From the NCBI GenBank assembly GCA_902800595.1, contig CADCFA010000011.1, positions 1-64,000 on the forward strand: a stretch of 64,000 nt of DNA, written 5' to 3'. The DNA comes from an uncultured Prevotellaceae bacterium. Its GTDB lineage: Bacteria > Bacteroidota > Bacteroidia > Bacteroidales > Bacteroidaceae. This document shows, piece by piece, positions 464 to 59,999 of this stretch. The translations under genes were made by a program, and so were the position numbers. Each line of letters starts with the position of its first letter. The stretch's first letter is position 1. The notes beneath the pieces are model-generated. The model was given only the letters and a program-made list of their open reading frames with translations, was not told where the DNA came from and ran no database searches.

Positions 464-586
464 ACCCATGACAAACAAAGTCGAGTCAACATGAATTAAA
501 AATAAGTTTAACCCCAGGTCAACCCTTATCACAAATAAGGCTCCAAGTAGTCAACTAAAATCTTAAACTACAAGCTTTAAAGGAAG
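464..586 (+). other. Non-coding leader with possible RNA structure
   Basis: There is no credible gene here. The hexamer GTCAAC occurs three times at even spacing (485, 518, 550). CCTTAT (524-529) can pair with ATAAGG (535-540) around a five-base loop. An outer AGTTTAA near 505 can pair with TTAAACT near 563. This stretch could be a structured leader RNA. It does not recur in the second cassette copy near 59.6 kb. Confidence 0.3.
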
Positions 587-667
587 TTCCCTGTATGGGA
601 ATGTTTGATTCCCAGTATGGGAATATTATGTTCCCAACGTGGGAACATTTGGTTCCCTTAATGGGAA
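587..667. repeat. Four palindromes TTCCC-N5-GGGAA at a 22-bp period
   Basis: The TTCCC arms start at 587, 609, 631 and 653, an exact 22-bp step. Each is followed by five variable bases (TGTAT, AGTAT, AACGT, TTAAT) and GGGAA. The step is close to two helical turns, so bound proteins would sit on one face. The same four-unit array, with the third and fourth cores identical, recurs at 59612-59692. The layout resembles iterons or a cooperative operator; which one is not determined. Confidence 0.9.
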
Positions 668-698
668 TGTTTTTCGCAAAAGAAGAGAAGCCACCCAA

Positions 699-763
699 CA
701 CCTAATGTATCACCTAACAGAACACCTAACAATCTCCTAACAAACACCTAACATACATCTAAC
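699..763 (+). repeat. Left arm: six CACCTAAC-type units
   Basis: The units start at 699, 711, 723, 734, 745 and 756 and vary slightly (CACCTAAT, CACCTAAC, CTCCTAAC, CATCTAAC). The period is 11-12 bp, one helical turn. They point towards the helicase gene. Reverse-complement units (GTTAGGTG) lie just after that gene at 2192-2295, so the gene sits between inverted arrays. Confidence 0.9.
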
Positions 764-834
764 ATCGGCCTTTTACCTTATTAATAAAAAAAGCACATTT
801 GTCGCGAAAAAACTGGTAAATAATTGGCAAAATA

Positions 835-866
835 TTTGGAATTGCTAAAAAAATTTTGTATCTTTG
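835..866 (+). promoter_or_regulatory. Promoter of the VapE-like gene
   Basis: TTTG (835-838), exactly 20 bases, then TATCTTTG (859-866). Transcription should start near 870, leaving a leader of about 110 bases before the ATG at 980. Confidence 0.8.
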
Positions 867-979
867 CACACCGAAAGCGGAAGCGATTCTGCTCACAAAA
901 ACGAAAAACGCTGTGGAAAGCGCAAATCGTACTAAGGAAACGGAATTAAGGAAGTAACTTATTATTTAATCATATCTCT

Positions 980-2188
980 ATGAGTAAGAAAAATCTTATC
1001 ATGGGAGAGGTTATGAATGCCTCTCTCGAAACAACGCTCGCCATCGAGCTGTTTCTTAATGACAACTACCTCTTCCGTCACAATGTGCTGAACGGAAAGG
1101 TGGAGTTTGCTATCAAGTCTGAAGACCATGAGCCTGTTTCCCGTCCACTGACTCAGGAGGCCCTCAACAGCATCATCCGCAGGGCCAAAAAGGAGCAGGT
1201 GTGCGAGAAAGGCAGTCCGAAGACGGAGATTATGGAGTTTGTACATTCTGAGGATGTGCAGACTTATGATCCCATCGGCGACTATCTGGCGAACCTGCCC
1301 AAATGGGACGGACAGAACCACATCGCCAAGCTCTTCAACCGCTTGCCTGGCATCACTTCTGAACAGCAGGGGTTCCTGACCATCTGGCTGCGATCCGTCG
1401 TGGCCCACTGGCTTCAGATGGACCAGCTGCACGGCAATGAGTGTGTGCCGACGCTGATTGGCGCTCAGGGCTGTGGCAAGACCACCTATTTCCATCGGCT
1501 GCTGCCACCATCGTTGCGACAGTATTATCTGGACCACCTGAACCTCTCGAACAAGTTCGATAAGGAGATGGCGCTGACGAACAATCTGCTGGTGAACCTC
1601 GATGAGCTCGATGCCATCCGTCGCTCTCAGCATGCAGCCCTGAAACAGACACTCTCGAAGAGCAAAGTCAACGGGCGACCCATCTATGGAGCCTCACAGG
1701 AAGACAGGCCTCGCTATGCCTCGTTTGTGGCTACCACAAACAATCCCCATCCGCTGACGGATGCCACAGGTAGTCGTCGTTATATCTGCCTGACGATTCC
1801 CAATGGGCAGTATATCGACAACTCGGGGGAGATCGACTACGGGCAGCTTTATGCCCAGGTGGTTTACGAGCTGACAGTTGCCAAGACGCCTTATTGGTTT
1901 GACAACAGTGAGGTGGCGCGTATTCAGGAGCTGAACCAGAACTATCTGGAACAGAAAGACATTGCTGAGATGGTGGAAATCTGCTTCCGCAAGCCTCATG
2001 AGGGTGAAGCTGCCAAGTCGATGAACTCGAAGATGATGCTGAAGTACATGCAGAAGGACTATCCTTCGGTGGAGATCAACCACAGCAACCGCATCAAGGT
2101 GGGACTGGCGATGAAGTCGCTGGGCTACGAGTGGACAGACCAAAGCAATGTTCCTTTCTACAAAGTCGTACCCATCACAGCAGCCTGA
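980..2188 (+). CDS. VapE-like P-loop helicase/primase-type protein
   Basis: A 402-residue protein of the virulence-associated protein E family (VapE, PF05272). These are superfamily-3-like ATPases that act in replication of phage satellites and other mobile elements. The Walker A motif GAQGCGKT is at residues 161-168, and a Walker B strand ending LLVNLDEL is at 203-210. A polar sensor motif ATTNN lies near residue 252. The C-terminal ~70 residues look like the domain often found after VapE in Bacteroidales (I recall it as DUF3874). No primase domain is apparent at the N terminus, so a partner would be needed for priming. The gene lies between inverted octamer arrays and has its own promoter (835-866). 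The role in DNA replication of the cassette is inferred from the family. Confidence 0.82.
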   Translation: MSKKNLIMGEVMNASLETTLAIELFLNDNYLFRHNVLNGKVEFAIKSEDHEPVSRPLTQEALNSIIRRAKKEQVCEKGSPKTEIMEFVHSEDVQTYDPIGDYLANLPKWDGQNHIAKLFNRLPGITSEQQGFLTIWLRSVVAHWLQMDQLHGNECVPTLIGAQGCGKTTYFHRLLPPSLRQYYLDHLNLSNKFDKEMALTNNLLVNLDELDAIRRSQHAALKQTLSKSKVNGRPIYGASQEDRPRYASFVATTNNPHPLTDATGSRRYICLTIPNGQYIDNSGEIDYGQLYAQVVYELTVAKTPYWFDNSEVARIQELNQNYLEQKDIAEMVEICFRKPHEGEAAKSMNSKMMLKYMQKDYPSVEINHSNRIKVGLAMKSLGYEWTDQSNVPFYKVVPITAA

Positions 2189-2191
2189 GAT

Positions 2192-2295
2192 GTTAGATGA
2201 CATGTTAGGTGTTTGTTAGGTGTTTAAGCGCCTTTTCAGATGCTAACATTCACAAAATGAGGTAGTTAACAGACATCGATGTTAGATGTTAGGTG
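2192..2295 (+). repeat. Right arm: GTTAGGTG-type units
   Basis: Units GTTAGATG (2192), GTTAGGTG (2204), GTTAGGTG (2215), GTTAGATG (2281) and GTTAGGTG (2288) are the reverse complement of the left-arm octamers. The first three are spaced 11-12 bp. Between the two clusters is a 58-bp stretch that is also partly conserved in the second copy (59829-59886). The last units end 31 bp before the next start codon and so may also lie in that gene's 5' region. Confidence 0.88.
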
Positions 2296-2325
2296 TTTCA
2301 CAGAAAAAAAATGAAAAATAAGAAT

Positions 2326-2766
2326 ATGGAAGAGAAAGAACTGAAAGCGAAAGACATTCCTTGGGGTTATGCCAAGTGTTTTAACGATGCATGCAGTCTG
2401 AAGGACAAGTGCTTGCACCATCTGGCCCGACTGATGAAATCGGATGGGCGTGATATCGGTCAGGCTGTGTTTCCAACCGCCTGGCAGGACGGCGAGTGCC
2501 GATGTTTCAGTGAGAAGAAACTGGTGAAGAAGGCCTGGGGCTTCTCTAAGCTCTATGATAAGATCCCCTATCGTGACAGGGCTGAGGCACGCCAGTGTGT
2601 AAGGAGTTACTTCAGTAGTGGCAACGGACCATACTATCGTGCCCATCACGGCGAAAACAAGCTATCGCCCAAACAGCAGGCGGACATTCTGGCAATCATC
2701 GCCAAGTTCTGTCCCATCGATGGCGTCAGGTTCGACCACTATGTGACAGACTGGGACTTTGGTTAA
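2326..2766 (+). CDS. Small Cys-containing protein, DUF6078-like
   Basis: A 146-residue soluble protein. I recognise it only as a Bacteroidales domain of unknown function (DUF6078 from memory). The N-terminal half carries cysteines in a spaced set (CFNDACSLKDKCL, then GECRCF), suggesting a metal-binding or structural cluster. The start is set at the ATG at 2326 because the truncated second copy (59934) keeps this ATG and the next 11 codons, while the earlier in-frame ATG at 2311 is not conserved there. The gene follows the right octamer arm by about 30 bp and is probably co-transcribed with the VapE-like gene. Confidence 0.7.
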   Translation: MEEKELKAKDIPWGYAKCFNDACSLKDKCLHHLARLMKSDGRDIGQAVFPTAWQDGECRCFSEKKLVKKAWGFSKLYDKIPYRDRAEARQCVRSYFSSGNGPYYRAHHGENKLSPKQQADILAIIAKFCPIDGVRFDHYVTDWDFG

Positions 2767-55251: not shown

Positions 55252-55274
55252 ACGACAAGATAATAGGCTAAATG

Positions 55275-55306
55275 TTTGGTAGTTTAAAAACTATTCACTA
55301 CCTTTG
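55275..55306 (+). promoter_or_regulatory. dinD promoter with palindrome in the spacer
   Basis: TTTG (55275-55278), 20 bases, TACCTTTG (55299-55306). The spacer contains TAGTTTAAAAACTA (55280-55293), a 14-bp palindrome with a two-base centre. A repressor bound here would block polymerase; an SOS-type site is plausible given the gene. Confidence 0.65.
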
Positions 55307-55342
55307 CAGGCGATAATTATATGTTCTTTAAACTATATACAT

Positions 55343-56173
55343 ATGAAAAAAGAAACAATCAATCAGTTGTACAAGGCATTTGAGCAATATGCCCTTGAAG
55401 TGAATGGTGTTGAATGTTGGAGTGCCCGTGAACTACAGGAACTTCTTGGTTACAGTAAATGGGAGAACTTCACCAATGTGATTAACAAGGCCAAAGAAGC
55501 ATGCAAAAACGTTGGCCAAAATGTATCAGACCATTTTCCTGACGTCAGGAAAATGGTCTCCTTAGGGAGTGGATCAGAACGCGATGTTGATGACTTTCTA
55601 CTCACCCGCTATGCCTGCTACTTGGTGGCTCAGAATGGAGATCCTCGCAAAGAACAGATTGCTTTTGCTCAGACCTACTTTGCCGTTCAGACAAGGAAAG
55701 CAGAATTGATAGAGCAACGTCTTCTTGAGGTAGAGCGTGTTCAGGCCCGTGCTAAATTGCAGGAGACAGAAAAGAAACTTTCAGGTGTCCTTTATGAACG
55801 TGGCATCAACGACAAGACCTTTGCAGTAATCCGTTCTAAAGGCGACCAGGCCCTCTTCCGGCTAAGTACTGCTACATTGAAGCGGAAAATGAATATACCT
55901 GCAAGTCGCCCATTGGCAGACTTCCTACCCACAATTAGCATCAAGGCTAAAGATTTTGCAGCAGAGCTGACCAGTGTAAATGTACAGGCCAAGGATCTAC
56001 AAAGCGAAACGATGATTACGCAGGAGCATATAGACAATAACGCTGCCGTTCGCCGCATTCTCTTGGAACGTGGTGTCATACCAGAGGACTTGCCTGCTGA
56101 AGAGGACGTAAAGAAGGTGGAGCGCAGAATAGCCAGTGAAAAGAAGAAAGCAATAGAAAACAAGCGAAAATAA
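55343..56173 (+). CDS. dinD: DNA-damage-inducible protein D
   Basis: A 276-residue DinD-like protein. The N-terminal BRO/KilA-like domain includes [18 protein letters not shown]. The middle section has [26 protein letters not shown], and the C terminus is helical and very basic ([20 protein letters not shown]). E. coli DinD is SOS-induced and interacts with RecA; this gene's promoter has a palindrome in the spacer. It borders the A+T-rich accessory region that follows. Confidence 0.88.
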
Positions 56174-56199
56174 TCATTATTGATCTTTTTGTGCCTCAG

Positions 56200-56263
56200 C
56201 AGCAGGATTTATGCCCCTTCCCTTCGGAACTGCAATCCGACGCGGTATTCATAAACCCTGCTG
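56200..56263. repeat. Inverted repeat downstream of dinD, possible gene remnant
   Basis: CAGCAGGATTTATG (56200-56213) and CATAAACCCTGCTG (56250-56263) are inverted with one mismatch over 14 bp. No T run follows. On the minus strand the same stretch (about 56215-56325) is open and reads like the last strands of a barrel (DSRVYEYRVGLQFRR), perhaps the tail of a deleted gene. Nothing else is seen between dinD and the WG-repeat gene. Confidence 0.4.
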
Positions 56264-56369
56264 TCATACCCATCCATTTCTGGCTGAGTTTTTACACTAT
56301 ATTCACGAAGTTTCTTCCAACTAAATAGAGACATCCATCAATACATTTTGACTGTATAAAAATACGGTT

Positions 56370-58106
56370 CTACTCAAAGCCACAGATTCTTTTTGTAAGA
56401 ACATAATCATCATTATCTCTATGAGGTTCACACCAATTATACTCACAATGGACTTCACCACCACTAAATGATTTAAGATTCACAATGTGGTGATCTGTCT
56501 TAATAACACATTCTCCTTTTTTGTTGATATATTGACTGCCAATTAAAGCCAAACCTTCTGAGAAGTCCTCACCTCGTCTGGTTACAAAAGGAATAGCCAT
56601 TTCTAAATTCTCATTGAGATAACACATTTTATCATTATACCCCACTAAAGCCATACCTTCAACAAACTTATGTGCTACACTAAAAATGGGGGGACATAGA
56701 ATTTTTCCATCTATTCTTTTAAAACCATATAATTGATTTTCTTCATAAGGTATGGGCGTTTCTAAATCCAAGAACATTTCTTGATAATCCTCTGTTTGTA
56801 TTGAGATTTTTATCTTTTTATAAACTTTTCTTACATCTTCAGCAGAATGAAATACACATGGCATTAATTCATTCAATTTACCATCAACGCATCCATATAA
56901 AGTACCTTTTTGAACGATAGAAATACCATTTTCAAAATCATATGCCCAATCATATTTATTAGGTATTCGTATTTCGTTTCCATCTTTTTTTACTATAATG
57001 TTACCATCTGTATCAATAGTCCCAAAATCTACATCATATCTTACTTTTGCCTTGCCATCAACAAAGGGGTGTATTTCATTGTATTTACAGCGTATCACTT
57101 CTATACTGTCTTCATTAACATAACCATAACCTCTTTTACTATCATATACAGGAAGTAAGCCATTACAAAATTGGATTCCTATCTCATCATAATACTTTCC
57201 CCATTCAAGTACAGGTACATTCACTCTGTCTTTTACAGAGATGGGATAAAAAGTACCATCTGTCTTCAACACACCTATGTTTGATACCCTTATCCAACCA
57301 TCTTTTATAATTCCTCCAATCATTGGTTCTTCATATATAACTTTTTGACTTTTAATATCTAGAAGAATTCCGTCATCAATAATCGCTACTTTACCATCGC
57401 AATCCCATATAAATCCATAAATAGGTGGAAGTATCTCAATACCTTCTTTGTTAACTATACCATGCCTCTCACCTATTTCAACTTGATATAATCCCAATCC
57501 CTTTCGGAAACCACAGCACCAAATAGAATCATATTTGGGTTCAACAATTATATTACCTTCATAATCGCAAAAGCCATATAATCGCTCATTCCACATATCT
57601 CCATTTCGATTAGGTATATCTTTGTATATCAATAAAAGTCTGTCAAAATCATCTTTTATCTTATATGGAAGTTTTATTACGTCTCCATTTGATATGATTA
57701 ATTCATTCTCGCCTTTTTTATAATTCTTTCTACCACAGAAAGACTCAAACTCTTCCCAATTACATATTGTCGCTTGTTCGCTCCTTATGTCTTCTTTTTG
57801 ATGTATAATTTTTATTTTTTTATTTCGCATAGAAAATAAATCACCATCATAAGGTGATATATTCCCATCCTCATCCATATAGAAACACTGTTCATTCTCT
57901 GAAACTAAAAATTTCTCATGATCTTTTATAATATACGCTTCTATTTCTGCATCATAAGTAGACGCAATGGCATATTCATAATTTATGATCCTTGCCGTCT
58001 TTTTTGTGGCATTGTAAATCACATATGAGGCAATGTGTGAAAAAGAATCTCTATAGTCTGGAATTCTAATCAAATATACACCTTTGGCTGTTTTGAAATT
58101 GAACAT
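56370..58106 (-). CDS. WG-repeat protein
   Basis: A 578-residue protein built largely of WG repeats, recognisable as YGFCDYEGNIIVEPKYD, HGIVNKEGIEILPPIYG, YGYVNEDSIEVIRCKYN and YGCVDGKLNELMPCVF. These fold as beta-rich units. The N-terminal ~170 residues lack clear repeats. There is no signal peptide, so it is probably cytoplasmic. Codon use is visibly A+T-rich (many AAA, ATA, AAT) compared with the flanking genes, which suggests horizontal transfer. It lies 59 bp downstream of an AbiH-like gene on the same strand, so the two may form one unit. Confidence 0.8.
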   Translation of the reverse strand: MFNFKTAKGVYLIRIPDYRDSFSHIASYVIYNATKKTARIINYEYAIASTYDAEIEAYIIKDHEKFLVSENEQCFYMDEDGNISPYDGDLFSMRNKKIKIIHQKEDIRSEQATICNWEEFESFCGRKNYKKGENELIISNGDVIKLPYKIKDDFDRLLLIYKDIPNRNGDMWNERLYGFCDYEGNIIVEPKYDSIWCCGFRKGLGLYQVEIGERHGIVNKEGIEILPPIYGFIWDCDGKVAIIDDGILLDIKSQKVIYEEPMIGGIIKDGWIRVSNIGVLKTDGTFYPISVKDRVNVPVLEWGKYYDEIGIQFCNGLLPVYDSKRGYGYVNEDSIEVIRCKYNEIHPFVDGKAKVRYDVDFGTIDTDGNIIVKKDGNEIRIPNKYDWAYDFENGISIVQKGTLYGCVDGKLNELMPCVFHSAEDVRKVYKKIKISIQTEDYQEMFLDLETPIPYEENQLYGFKRIDGKILCPPIFSVAHKFVEGMALVGYNDKMCYLNENLEMAIPFVTRRGEDFSEGLALIGSQYINKKGECVIKTDHHIVNLKSFSGGEVHCEYNWCEPHRDNDDYVLTKRICGFE

Positions 58107-58165
58107 ACTCTCAAAAATTTATTTGTTATACGTGTAATGAATGTCAATACAGTTATTCTAATGTT

Positions 58166-59077
58166 TCACAATTCAATATCATTCATAAGAAATGGCGTGA
58201 TACAACTATTGTTTACTCCTAAGTTAATAAGAGTTTCTTTCCTGACACCATATTGTTTCAACATACTATCTTTATCTTTAAAGAAAATATTCCATTTAGC
58301 ATCTTTCTTTGTCTTTTGTGATATTATCTTATAGTAAGGTAAATCTATGTCGTTAATAGAATGCCCAATTACCTTTATTTCAGAAACGTTGTGTAATGAG
58401 TTAAAGAACTTTAGATTCTTATGTATCAAACTTTCTACTGGTTTTAAAGTCTTTTGAAAATAATCATTTCGAATAATTGTTTCACATTCATATAACCTAA
58501 TATCGTCGAAATCATTTACAGGTTGCATGATTTTCATATTGTGCCCAGTTATTATAGAATCAGGATAGTCAGTTGTTCCATGAATATGAATCACTTGCTT
58601 TGGTGGTATTTTATAATATGACTCCAGAGTCTTTGTATAATTAAAAGTGAAATATATTGCATCTGCTTCCAATCGTAACCGTTTAGATGTTGCCAAAACA
58701 TTTATAAGGCATATCCAATTGACAAGATGTTGTATTAGTTTATTTGTTAAGCTATCTACCAAGTTTTGAATTATATATTGAACTCTGTGATTATCTTCAT
58801 CTTCCCAGTCTTCTGCTCCGTATTGGACAAGATTATCATTAATATATTGCCACAATAAGTCCTGGTCTATTTCTTTTAGTCCGTTTTCAAAATCTGCCCA
58901 CAAAGAAAAAACGCCCTTGTTCTGATTGTCGATAAAAGTAGGATACCAATTAGAAAGAATATCGTAGAACTCTTGATCATGAGTTTTAATAAAGTTCCCA
59001 AAATGAGAATATGAAGTTGGAAGGTCGTGAAAACGGTCCAGACCATTTCCGATTATATATAAACAAGGACTTGCCAT
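58166..59077 (-). CDS. AbiH-like abortive infection protein
   Basis: A 303-residue protein matching the AbiH family of phage abortive-infection proteins. Marks: IIGNG at 8-12 with LPTSY after it, FNYTKTLE at 145-152, HIHG at 164-167 and VIGHSINDID at 236-245. The motif set resembles a nucleotide-binding or SIR2-like fold, but the enzymatic activity of AbiH is not established. A+T-rich like the next gene. No TAnnTTTG element is seen before the start, so it may be expressed from the small gene 45 bp upstream. Confidence 0.85.
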   Translation of the reverse strand: MASPCLYIIGNGLDRFHDLPTSYSHFGNFIKTHDQEFYDILSNWYPTFIDNQNKGVFSLWADFENGLKEIDQDLLWQYINDNLVQYGAEDWEDEDNHRVQYIIQNLVDSLTNKLIQHLVNWICLINVLATSKRLRLEADAIYFTFNYTKTLESYYKIPPKQVIHIHGTTDYPDSIITGHNMKIMQPVNDFDDIRLYECETIIRNDYFQKTLKPVESLIHKNLKFFNSLHNVSEIKVIGHSINDIDLPYYKIISQKTKKDAKWNIFFKDKDSMLKQYGVRKETLINLGVNNSCITPFLMNDIEL

Positions 59078-59122
59078 AATGAAATATTGTGAATGAATCT
59101 GCTATACTAAAAGGAAATGAAA

Positions 59123-59473
59123 TCATGCAATAGTATTTGTTACCAAAACAACCTTGTTCGATATTTCTCTCGTTTCACCTTGCCCTAACTCTGGTGTGTT
59201 AATGCGGATATCGCAATCTACGACGAAAATGGTGTTGGATTTGTTGGAACGGATTACATTTTCATCATGCATGTCGCTGATATCAGACTGCTTTTGAGTA
59301 CTTTCCTTAAAAGTCGCTGAGTGCTGGCGAATCCTGGCTATCTGAGCCAGTTTCCGCTCCTGCGAGCAGGGATGCAATGACATTTGTTGTACCTCCCGCT
59401 GCGCAGCCATGCTGTTCATGCGGTGAAAATCGTTGATAAACAAACCTCCCTTTCCAAAGTTTACGTTATTCAT
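59123..59473 (-). CDS. Small protein of unknown function
   Basis: A 116-residue protein starting MNNVNFGKGGLFINDF. The N-terminal half is basic, Gln/Met-rich; the C-terminal half ends in beta-prone segments (NTIFVVDCDIRIN, EISNKVVLVTNTI). I do not recognise it. The -7 element TATATTTG (minus, 59494-59501) gives a leader of about 17 bases. As first gene of a same-strand run with abiH and the WG gene it may be part of that unit. Confidence 0.6.
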   Translation of the reverse strand: MNNVNFGKGGLFINDFHRMNSMAAQREVQQMSLHPCSQERKLAQIARIRQHSATFKESTQKQSDISDMHDENVIRSNKSNTIFVVDCDIRINTPELGQGETREISNKVVLVTNTIA

Positions 59474-59611
59474 ATTCAACCCGGATTTTGGTGCAAATAT
59501 ACAAATAAAAATGGAAATAATAAAGCAATTAAAGAAAAACTTCCAAAACTCAGGATTATGATAAGATGAATATTATTGCTATGACTAACAAGACCTAAGG
59601 CTCAAAATATG

Positions 59612-59692
59612 TTCCCAGTATGGGAATGTTTGGTTCCCAGGCTGGGAATATTATGTTCCCAACGTGGGAATATGTTGTTCCCTTAATGGGAA
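59612..59692. repeat. Four palindromes TTCCC-N5-GGGAA, second copy
   Basis: TTCCC arms start at 59612, 59634, 59656 and 59678, again exactly 22 bp apart. The cores are AGTAT, AGGCT, AACGT and TTAAT; the last two are identical to copy one. The following GGGAATGTTTTTCG is identical too. Confidence 0.9.
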
Positions 59693-59721
59693 TGTTTTTC
59701 GAGAATGACACAGGCTGCCAA

Positions 59722-59828
59722 CACCTAACGTATCACCTAACATAACTCCTAACAAACATCTAACAAACATCTAACAATCTCCTAACAAACACCTAACGTT
59801 AGGTGATATGTTAGGTGTTTGTTAGGTG
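59722..59828. repeat. Octamer arms joined head to head, second copy
   Basis: Seven CACCTAAC-type units (59722, 59734, 59746, 59757, 59768, 59779, 59790) are followed without any gap by three GTTAGGTG units (59798, 59810, 59821). The junction is the perfect palindrome CACCTAACGTTAGGTG (59790-59805). In the first copy 1.4 kb with the VapE-like gene lies between the arms. Confidence 0.92.
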
Positions 59829-59933
59829 TTTAAGCACCTCATCATATGCTAACACTCTCAAAATGAGACAGTTAACTGTCATCGATGTTAGGTGTTAGGT
59901 GTTTACAGAGAAAAAATCATAAATAATCAGAAT

Positions 59934-59975
59934 ATGGAAGAGAAAGAACTGAAAGCGAAAGACATTCCTCAGTAA
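59934..59975 (+). pseudogene. Truncated DUF6078-like gene (13 codons left)
   Basis: The start ATG and the codons for MEEKELKAKDIP are the same as at 2326, then CAG and a TAA stop. The rest of the gene is gone and unrelated sequence leads into the end of the esterase gene. Confidence 0.85.
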
Positions 59976-59999
59976 CGGTAACGGGCTCCCCTCTGCACT

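Follow-up and report, generated by a model that had tools for sequence, protein, structure and literature searches.

The closest described counterparts of the element analyzed here are the initiator-origin pairs of Staphylococcus aureus pathogenicity islands (SaPI) and phage-inducible chromosomal islands (PICI). In the available portions of the reports on them, repeat arrays in two sets lie directly 3' of the rep gene, and the C-terminal domain of the initiator reads these repeats (PMC6092414, PMC7581432). The Cch2 helicase of the staphylococcal cassette chromosome mec (SCCmec) is likewise described as binding, through its C-terminal domain, direct repeats situated just downstream (PMC7581432). 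The element in question is a cassette built around a VapE-like helicase gene at positions 587-2766 of a 64,000-nucleotide stretch of DNA (the window) from an uncultured Prevotellaceae bacterium (contig CADCFA010000011.1). The comparisons establish it as a unit with definable borders that occupies different sites, that carries matched arms specific to each cassette, and from which two gene-less copies have originated by deletion. The order of parts proposed in an earlier note on this DNA, namely palindrome array, left arm, VapE gene, right arm and DUF6078 gene, was found complete at the coordinates given there:

587..667, no strand: array of four palindromes TTCCC-N5-GGGAA, units starting at 587, 609, 631 and 653 (exact 22-bp steps); left edge of the mobile unit
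711..763, + strand: left arm, five CACCTAAC-type words in 11-12 bp steps; inner set only, without a distal set 66 bp away
859..866, + strand: TAnnTTTG box (TATCTTTG), promoter-like by motif match, ahead of the VapE gene
980..2188, + strand: VapE-like helicase gene, 402 amino acids; residues 325-398 predicted to form a winged helix, the likely arm reader
2192..2295, - strand: right arm, GTTAGATG/GTTAGGTG words at 2192, 2204 and 2215, then at 2281 and 2288 (66 bp from 2215)
2311..2766, + strand: complete DUF6078 gene (PF19555, 6.5e-31); the mobile unit of this subfamily has its right edge here

Since its left arm has no 65-67-bp step, the window cassette has one complete and one partial arm. The modelled VapE protein has a helicase fold close to that of replication initiators and appears PriRep1-like; the solved folds that the model resembles are PriRep1, a SaPI-type Rep, and the SaPI5 primase-helicase. 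The cassette therefore shares with SaPI/PICI systems the initiator-helicase fold and, by layout, a two-set repeat array directly 3' of the gene (right arms of 55 of the 61 cassettes compared below), and by analogy with what is reported there its C-terminal domain may be the repeat reader. It differs in that another array, inverted, stands ahead of the gene, in lacking primase, integrase and packaging genes, and in occurring as several copies plus gene-less derivatives per genome, the words being of about 20 kinds in a single genus. Judged from its sequence, the cassette looks like an SaPI-type initiator-origin pair but is no PICI, because the shared unit contains neither integrase nor primase. 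With Cch2 it shares a helicase with repeats directly downstream and a C-terminal domain as (here predicted) reader, but Cch2 belongs to a large resistance cassette, where it shares an operon with the polymerase CCPol and a small partner protein (PMC7581432, in the portion available).

Distribution of the cassette and matching of its arms

Among 150 genomes of the genus, a VapE protein search gave some match at E <= 1e-30 in 91, and 32 hold a standalone VapE of about 400 amino acids at >= 60% identity (list read by eye; G081 partial; L, G and C denote loci, genomes and contigs, and G000 is the window's own genome). Palindrome arrays are present in 26 of these 32 genomes versus 11 of the 118 others (Fisher p 4.8e-15). 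Prevotella genomes, many of them from ruminant stomachs, hold one or a few cassettes of about 2 kb each, and those listed begin with a 22-bp-period array, followed by the left arm, a promoter-like box, VapE, the right arm and often DUF6078, the VapE frames being open without internal stops in nearly all copies. In 247 genomes across the order, of which only two others belong to the same family, none outside the window's own has a VapE at E <= 1e-90. No close VapE relative was confirmed in IMG/VR by a scan that reaches close relatives only, and none was found in phage records or plasmids, where the best among the matches listed is 36% identical in each case. In the two phage records examined, out of 480 matching, the genes are VirE-like and no arms were seen by eye in their flanks. 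Among the open-licence papers listed, no title or opening part of an abstract describes the cassette or the palindrome arrays.

The matching of arms was assessed by comparing each left arm with inverted right arms. From 71 VapE loci, of which 62 reach an own-arm score of 15 and nine do not, one duplicate and two loci failing length filters were dropped, leaving 68 for the cross comparison. The mean score is 41.3 within a cassette and 11.3 against other cassettes; own scores reach 15 at 60 of the 68 loci, against 12.4% of cross scores. The own arm ranks first in 38 of 68 rows and within the top three in 53. For the 56 ordered pairs from the same genome the mean cross score is 14.1. A smaller set of 37 cassettes gave 41.1 for own and 12.4 for cross comparisons; the direct orientation scored 12.9 and shuffles 9.2.

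Cassettes with an own score of at least 15 were regarded as arm-bearing (61 without the duplicate). They come from 34 genomes of the genus plus nine loci on named contigs, with overlap possible (L111 is one of the G094 copies), and their words sort into about 20 groups. The right arm begins a median of 8 bp past the VapE stop codon, and in the 55 two-set arms the sets are separated by 35-95 bp. The step between sets is 65-68 bp in 39 cassettes (66 in 23 and 67 in 12), which corresponds to about six turns at the 11-bp period dominant downstream of VapE (z 13.2). CCTTT is found in 20 of 39 spacers versus 3.1 expected. The right arm of the window, 2192..2295, is likely an origin-like iteron array. 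A TAnnTTTG motif, a promoter-like -7 box, stands within 200 bp upstream of VapE in 56 of the 61 cassettes.

Other interpretations of the arms and genes were considered. A likeness of RYYYAAC/GTTRRRY words to integron attC sites was dropped because the words differ from cassette to cassette. As to an RNA element, Rfam gave only two tRNAs, and the window arms fold no better than shuffles (z -0.48 right, 0.19 left); folding beyond shuffles was seen for the abutting arms of the gene-less copy (z -8.3) and for the palindrome array (z -5.5). A defence system was rejected, there being no PADLOC match for VapE or DUF6078. At L055, L102, L126, L128 and L158 a palindrome array stands between paired CCTCTAC/GTAGAGG arms that enclose no VapE; a distant VapE (37%) lies elsewhere on L128, and no helicase matching these arms was found.

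Borders, different sites and gene-less derivatives

The borders of the unit were compared in six pairs of similar cassettes. In the pairs window/L226 (92.6% identity) and L192/L193 (91.2%) the common block runs from the array to the DUF6078 stop; homology with L226 begins 18 bp left of the window's palindrome array and stops 5 bp short of the end of its DUF6078 gene. L111 and L123 (94.8%) share the same block plus about 90 bp past the stop. L203 and L207 (84.4%), both without DUF6078, share a block running about arm to arm, L095 and L119 (86.3%) positions -298 to +1746 plus a weaker piece over the array, and L073 and L207 (85.1%) positions -75 to +1331 plus weaker upstream pieces. In the available flanks of the six pairs no further match at E <= 1e-8 was found, save one in L192/L193 that covers 124 bp downstream. 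As genes, the block common to copies at different sites carries VapE and at most DUF6078, which is missing from some units, and no transposase, integrase or primase gene lies inside it. About 100 bp left of the array that are common to L226 and L008 (a gene-less scaffold of the window's genome) recur at a second scaffold of the window, at 59612; the unit may therefore extend further left, and the L226/L008 match proves no shared site.

This second scaffold, noted earlier as a copy of the same non-coding parts without the helicase gene, is present as described. The two scaffolds are 84.5% identical over 181 columns in the left block (E 1.4e-50) and 88.4% over 173 columns in the right block (E 3.6e-58). 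Its parts and surroundings are:

59612..59692, no strand: four-unit palindrome array, units starting at 59612, 59634, 59656 and 59678 (exact 22-bp steps)
59722..59797, + strand: left arm, seven CACCTAAC-type words
59798..59901, - strand: right arm, GTTAGGTG-type words at 59798, 59810 and 59821, then at 59887 and 59894 (again a 66-bp step)
59934..59969, + strand: start of a DUF6078 gene, first 12 codons only, followed by unrelated sequence
55256..59997, no strand: 4.74-kb islet with a Bro-N gene, a WG-repeat gene, AbiH, a small open reading frame and, at its right edge, the gene-less scaffold; absent from the sister genome G131

The sister genome G131 shows how such copies arise. At the window's site in G131 (L223; right flank 98% identical) both arms are kept, DUF6078 is truncated, and of VapE only two scraps, of 106 and 64 bp, survive; to the left, past the array, the flanks of the two genomes show no match. 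The intact cassette of G131, whose VapE is 95.9% identical in DNA and 98.8% in protein to that of the window, occupies in turn the place of L008. The gene to the right of L008 is represented in G131 by two contig ends, 60 bp (C8:3-62) beside the cassette and 2072 bp (C6:1-2072, 96%). With L223 gene-less where the window has the full cassette, and L008 gene-less where G131 has it, the gene was lost reciprocally in two species. At the level of sequence, this establishes L223 and L008 as internal-deletion remnants of full cassettes and supports deletion, one of the two origins suggested previously for the second copy, as a way in which gene-less copies arise. Those at 59612, on C6 and on C24 may have arisen likewise. 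Paired arms without the gene are common among array loci (counts below).

In G000 (2.37 Mb, 75 contigs, 79% complete) five scaffolds exist (C6, C11 twice, C18, C24), so that the two counted in the earlier note are real but fall short of the total; in the wider set the scaffold stands at many loci, so that the condition named in the earlier note as speaking against mobility did not arise. The 402-amino-acid VapE gene is found in G000 only in the copy at 587, the four other VapE matches being 32-40% identical pieces of longer frames. Gene-less inverted ends made by internal deletion, as in L223 and L008, are also the mark of miniature inverted-repeat transposable elements (MITEs), but the full VapE cassette encodes a helicase and DUF6078 without a match to any transposase family. 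The BrickBuilt MITE of Porphyromonas gingivalis is similarly a short, multi-copy, non-coding Bacteroidales element with tandem repeats and inverted ends, but, in the available portion of its description, its 23-nt repeats have no spacers and lie in intergenic DNA in every case, its ends are insertion-sequence-like, and no helicase parent is given (PMC4596501). The cassette acts as a mobile element would and has MITE-like derivatives, but its full form lacks a transposase.

Palindrome arrays as a wider family

Read forward, the palindrome-pair pattern matches G000 25 times, at 10 places, and read backwards it never does, which excludes chance. Beside the scaffolds, five further places carry an array only, perhaps four because the end of C13 and the start of C30 carry the same sequence. 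These two contigs finish in an identical array with identical flanks, so the assembly broke there, and arrays may cause assembly breaks elsewhere too. All five four-unit arrays in G000 have CACCTAAC arms, and none of the five three-unit arrays has. Within the genus the pattern occurs in 37 of 150 genomes, and at least 119 stretches bear it among named genomes. By record title nearly all of these are Prevotella or Prevotellaceae, ruminant stomachs being a frequent source; isolated exceptions include Bacteroides timonensis and a Paenibacillus. In a catalogue of 155 arrays or single units, 97 have three units and 32 have four, and 328 of 338 steps are exactly 22 bp, a conservation that is overstated because the catalogue was seeded on exact units.

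Long open frames contain 30 of 122 arrays (three or more units, enough flank) versus 2144 of 2504 random positions; arrays therefore avoid genes. Those inside genes are read in frame, recurrently in the same genes of different species, including an ABC-F protein, a CobB/CbiA-like protein and glycosidases (names by eye except ABC-F). Examples of in-frame three-unit arrays (66 bp) are L006:3954-4012 and L010:3973-4031, and the ABC-F insert sits in the linker. Among the best 120 ABC-F homologues listed, 62 have at least two insert peptide signatures, 15 have one, 35 none, and eight have no match to the linker pattern. Rickettsia palindromic elements are palindromic inserts read in frame within proteins; they are alike in this, while the insert here is typically a three-unit array of 66 bp. 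Repetitive extragenic palindromes and their hairpin-forming doublets (REP/REPIN), which go with REP-associated tyrosine transposases (RAYT), are also dispersed and in part genic, but the arrays here are 22-bp-period TTCCCANNNTGGGAA units without the GTAG/CGTC tags described for them in the portion of the source available (PMC3733652). The flank consensus is about TAAAT, with no tetranucleotide tag and so neither GTAG nor CGTC at the palindrome foot.

The proposal that the palindromes are themselves the iterons bound by the initiator had to be given up, because arrays occur without the VapE gene (in 11 of 118 genus genomes lacking VapE-402 at >= 60% identity) and the TTCCC type lies upstream in only 24 of 60 cassettes and downstream in none. 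The arrays form a wider family, often alone and sometimes in frame within genes; the CACCTAAC/GTTAGGTG arms are the likely iterons instead. In the 36 of 60 cassettes without an upstream TTCCC array the strongest upstream period is still 22 bp (z 9.8), with other palindromes visible by eye. Such palindromes (AATAAGG-N-CCTTATT, CGGACTGNNAGTCCG; by eye) stand near arms, beside the TTCCC array or in its place, at L040, L057, L198, L200, L211 and L214. Long inverted outer flanks around arrays were rejected (own score 6.18 versus 6.07 for shuffled pairs).

Some further observations concern the surroundings. An insertion-sequence-like end (TGTAGTTTAACGATTTTAGTTGA and variants) is found at window positions 551-572 and at L115, L119 and L165, and in four of five occurrences at catalogue loci it adjoins a palindrome array, as though arrays were its target. 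The palindrome-pair pattern also occurs in 25 IMG/VR viral-contig stretches (L166-L190), possibly Prevotella phage or mis-binned host DNA. The Bro-N gene of the islet matches PADLOC PDC-S13, and a DNA methylase gene (PF01555; L009:4699-6618), probably of a restriction system, adjoins another gene-less scaffold.

Replication, transposition or regulation

The mobility proposed for the scaffold in the earlier note is supported by much the same block standing at different sites; its function as the cis-acting part of a replicating element is the part to be weighed. We consider it reasonably probable that the cassette is a recently mobile VapE unit with inverted arms acting as a minimal replicon, whose self-loading initiator reads its own arms through the C-terminal domain. 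The C-terminal winged helix of VapE would bind the 8-9-bp words as iterons, the right arm would be the place where hexamers load and open the DNA, and copying of the unit would fall to host enzymes. The gene-less scaffolds would then be origin-only derivatives, serviceable only by a helicase of the same word.

Several results weigh against this replicon. Eight of 68 VapE loci score below 15 for their own arms; five of them have diverged VapEs (<56% identity), but L199, L201 and L255 do not (the arms of L199 are visible by eye, the left one outside the scored stretch). A few same-genome pairs share arms, notably two copies in G035 (cross scores 84 and 78.5), and the VapE N-terminus keeps a small correlation of its own, reached by none of 500 permutations. 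The left-arm step is 65-67 bp in only 32 of 61 cassettes, differs in 11 and is missing in 18, including the window. The DNA separating the two word sets shows no clear AT enrichment (mean AT 0.58, range 0.43-0.83), which may set it apart from PICI origins. No consistent target-site duplication was seen by eye at the borders of 16 loci, and most genomes compared, like that of the window, are drafts. The words could, moreover, be operators instead.

Operator arrays through which VapE or a neighbour controls transcription, with passive spread by recombination and insertion sequences, would account for the frequent TAnnTTTG box upstream of VapE and for the insertion-sequence-like end adjoining four arrays. 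We nevertheless hold this to be quite unlikely, given that an operator needs neither a right arm placed so closely past the stop codon nor its often fixed 66-67-bp step, and that both arms are kept in gene-less copies. It is slightly easier to envisage, though still unlikely, that the arms are the inverted ends of a DNA transposon, with VapE or DUF6078 as recombination protein and the gene-less copies as ordinary MITEs. Inverted arms, a discrete unit at different sites and internally deleted copies fit such an element, as does the finding of paired arms within 500 bp of the array at 34 of 144 array loci (some from related strains) versus none of 115 control stretches. Against it stand the helicase fold near replication initiators and the fact that no consistent target-site duplication was seen by eye; scans of Pfam, NCBIfam and PHROGs assigned no nuclease or transposase family to VapE or DUF6078, and DUF6078, besides being dispensable to some units, gave a model (predicted local distance difference test 75.7) without a fold match at E <= 0.001. 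The least probable origin, favoured by the PriRep1-like fold and the repeat arrays reported downstream of rep (PMC6092414, PMC7581432, portions available), is the decayed replication module of an integrated PICI-like satellite that lost its other genes. The open VapE frames, the much same 2.2-kb borders at different sites and the lack of a confirmed close relative in the IMG/VR close-relative scan, phage records or plasmids speak against decay of this kind.

A bolder extension of the minimal-replicon reading, and a rather unlikely one, is that the cassette represents a new class of bacterial transposable element, whose own initiator helicase fires from inverted origin arms without transposase or integrase. 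Were such initiator-driven transposition true, the genus would contain dozens of initiator-origin pairs blind to one another, and each pair would have gene-less, origin-only parasites of its own.

If the cassette is indeed a minimal replicon read by its own initiator, one genus would offer about sixty natural initiator-origin pairs in which the helicase core is conserved while the words are of about twenty kinds, so that an old question, the joint change of specificity in initiators and iterons, would be directly testable by swaps of domains and words. The cassette would also be an example of a mobile element with no known recombinase of its own to move it. The sister species provide a clean instance of gene-less derivatives that arose reciprocally.
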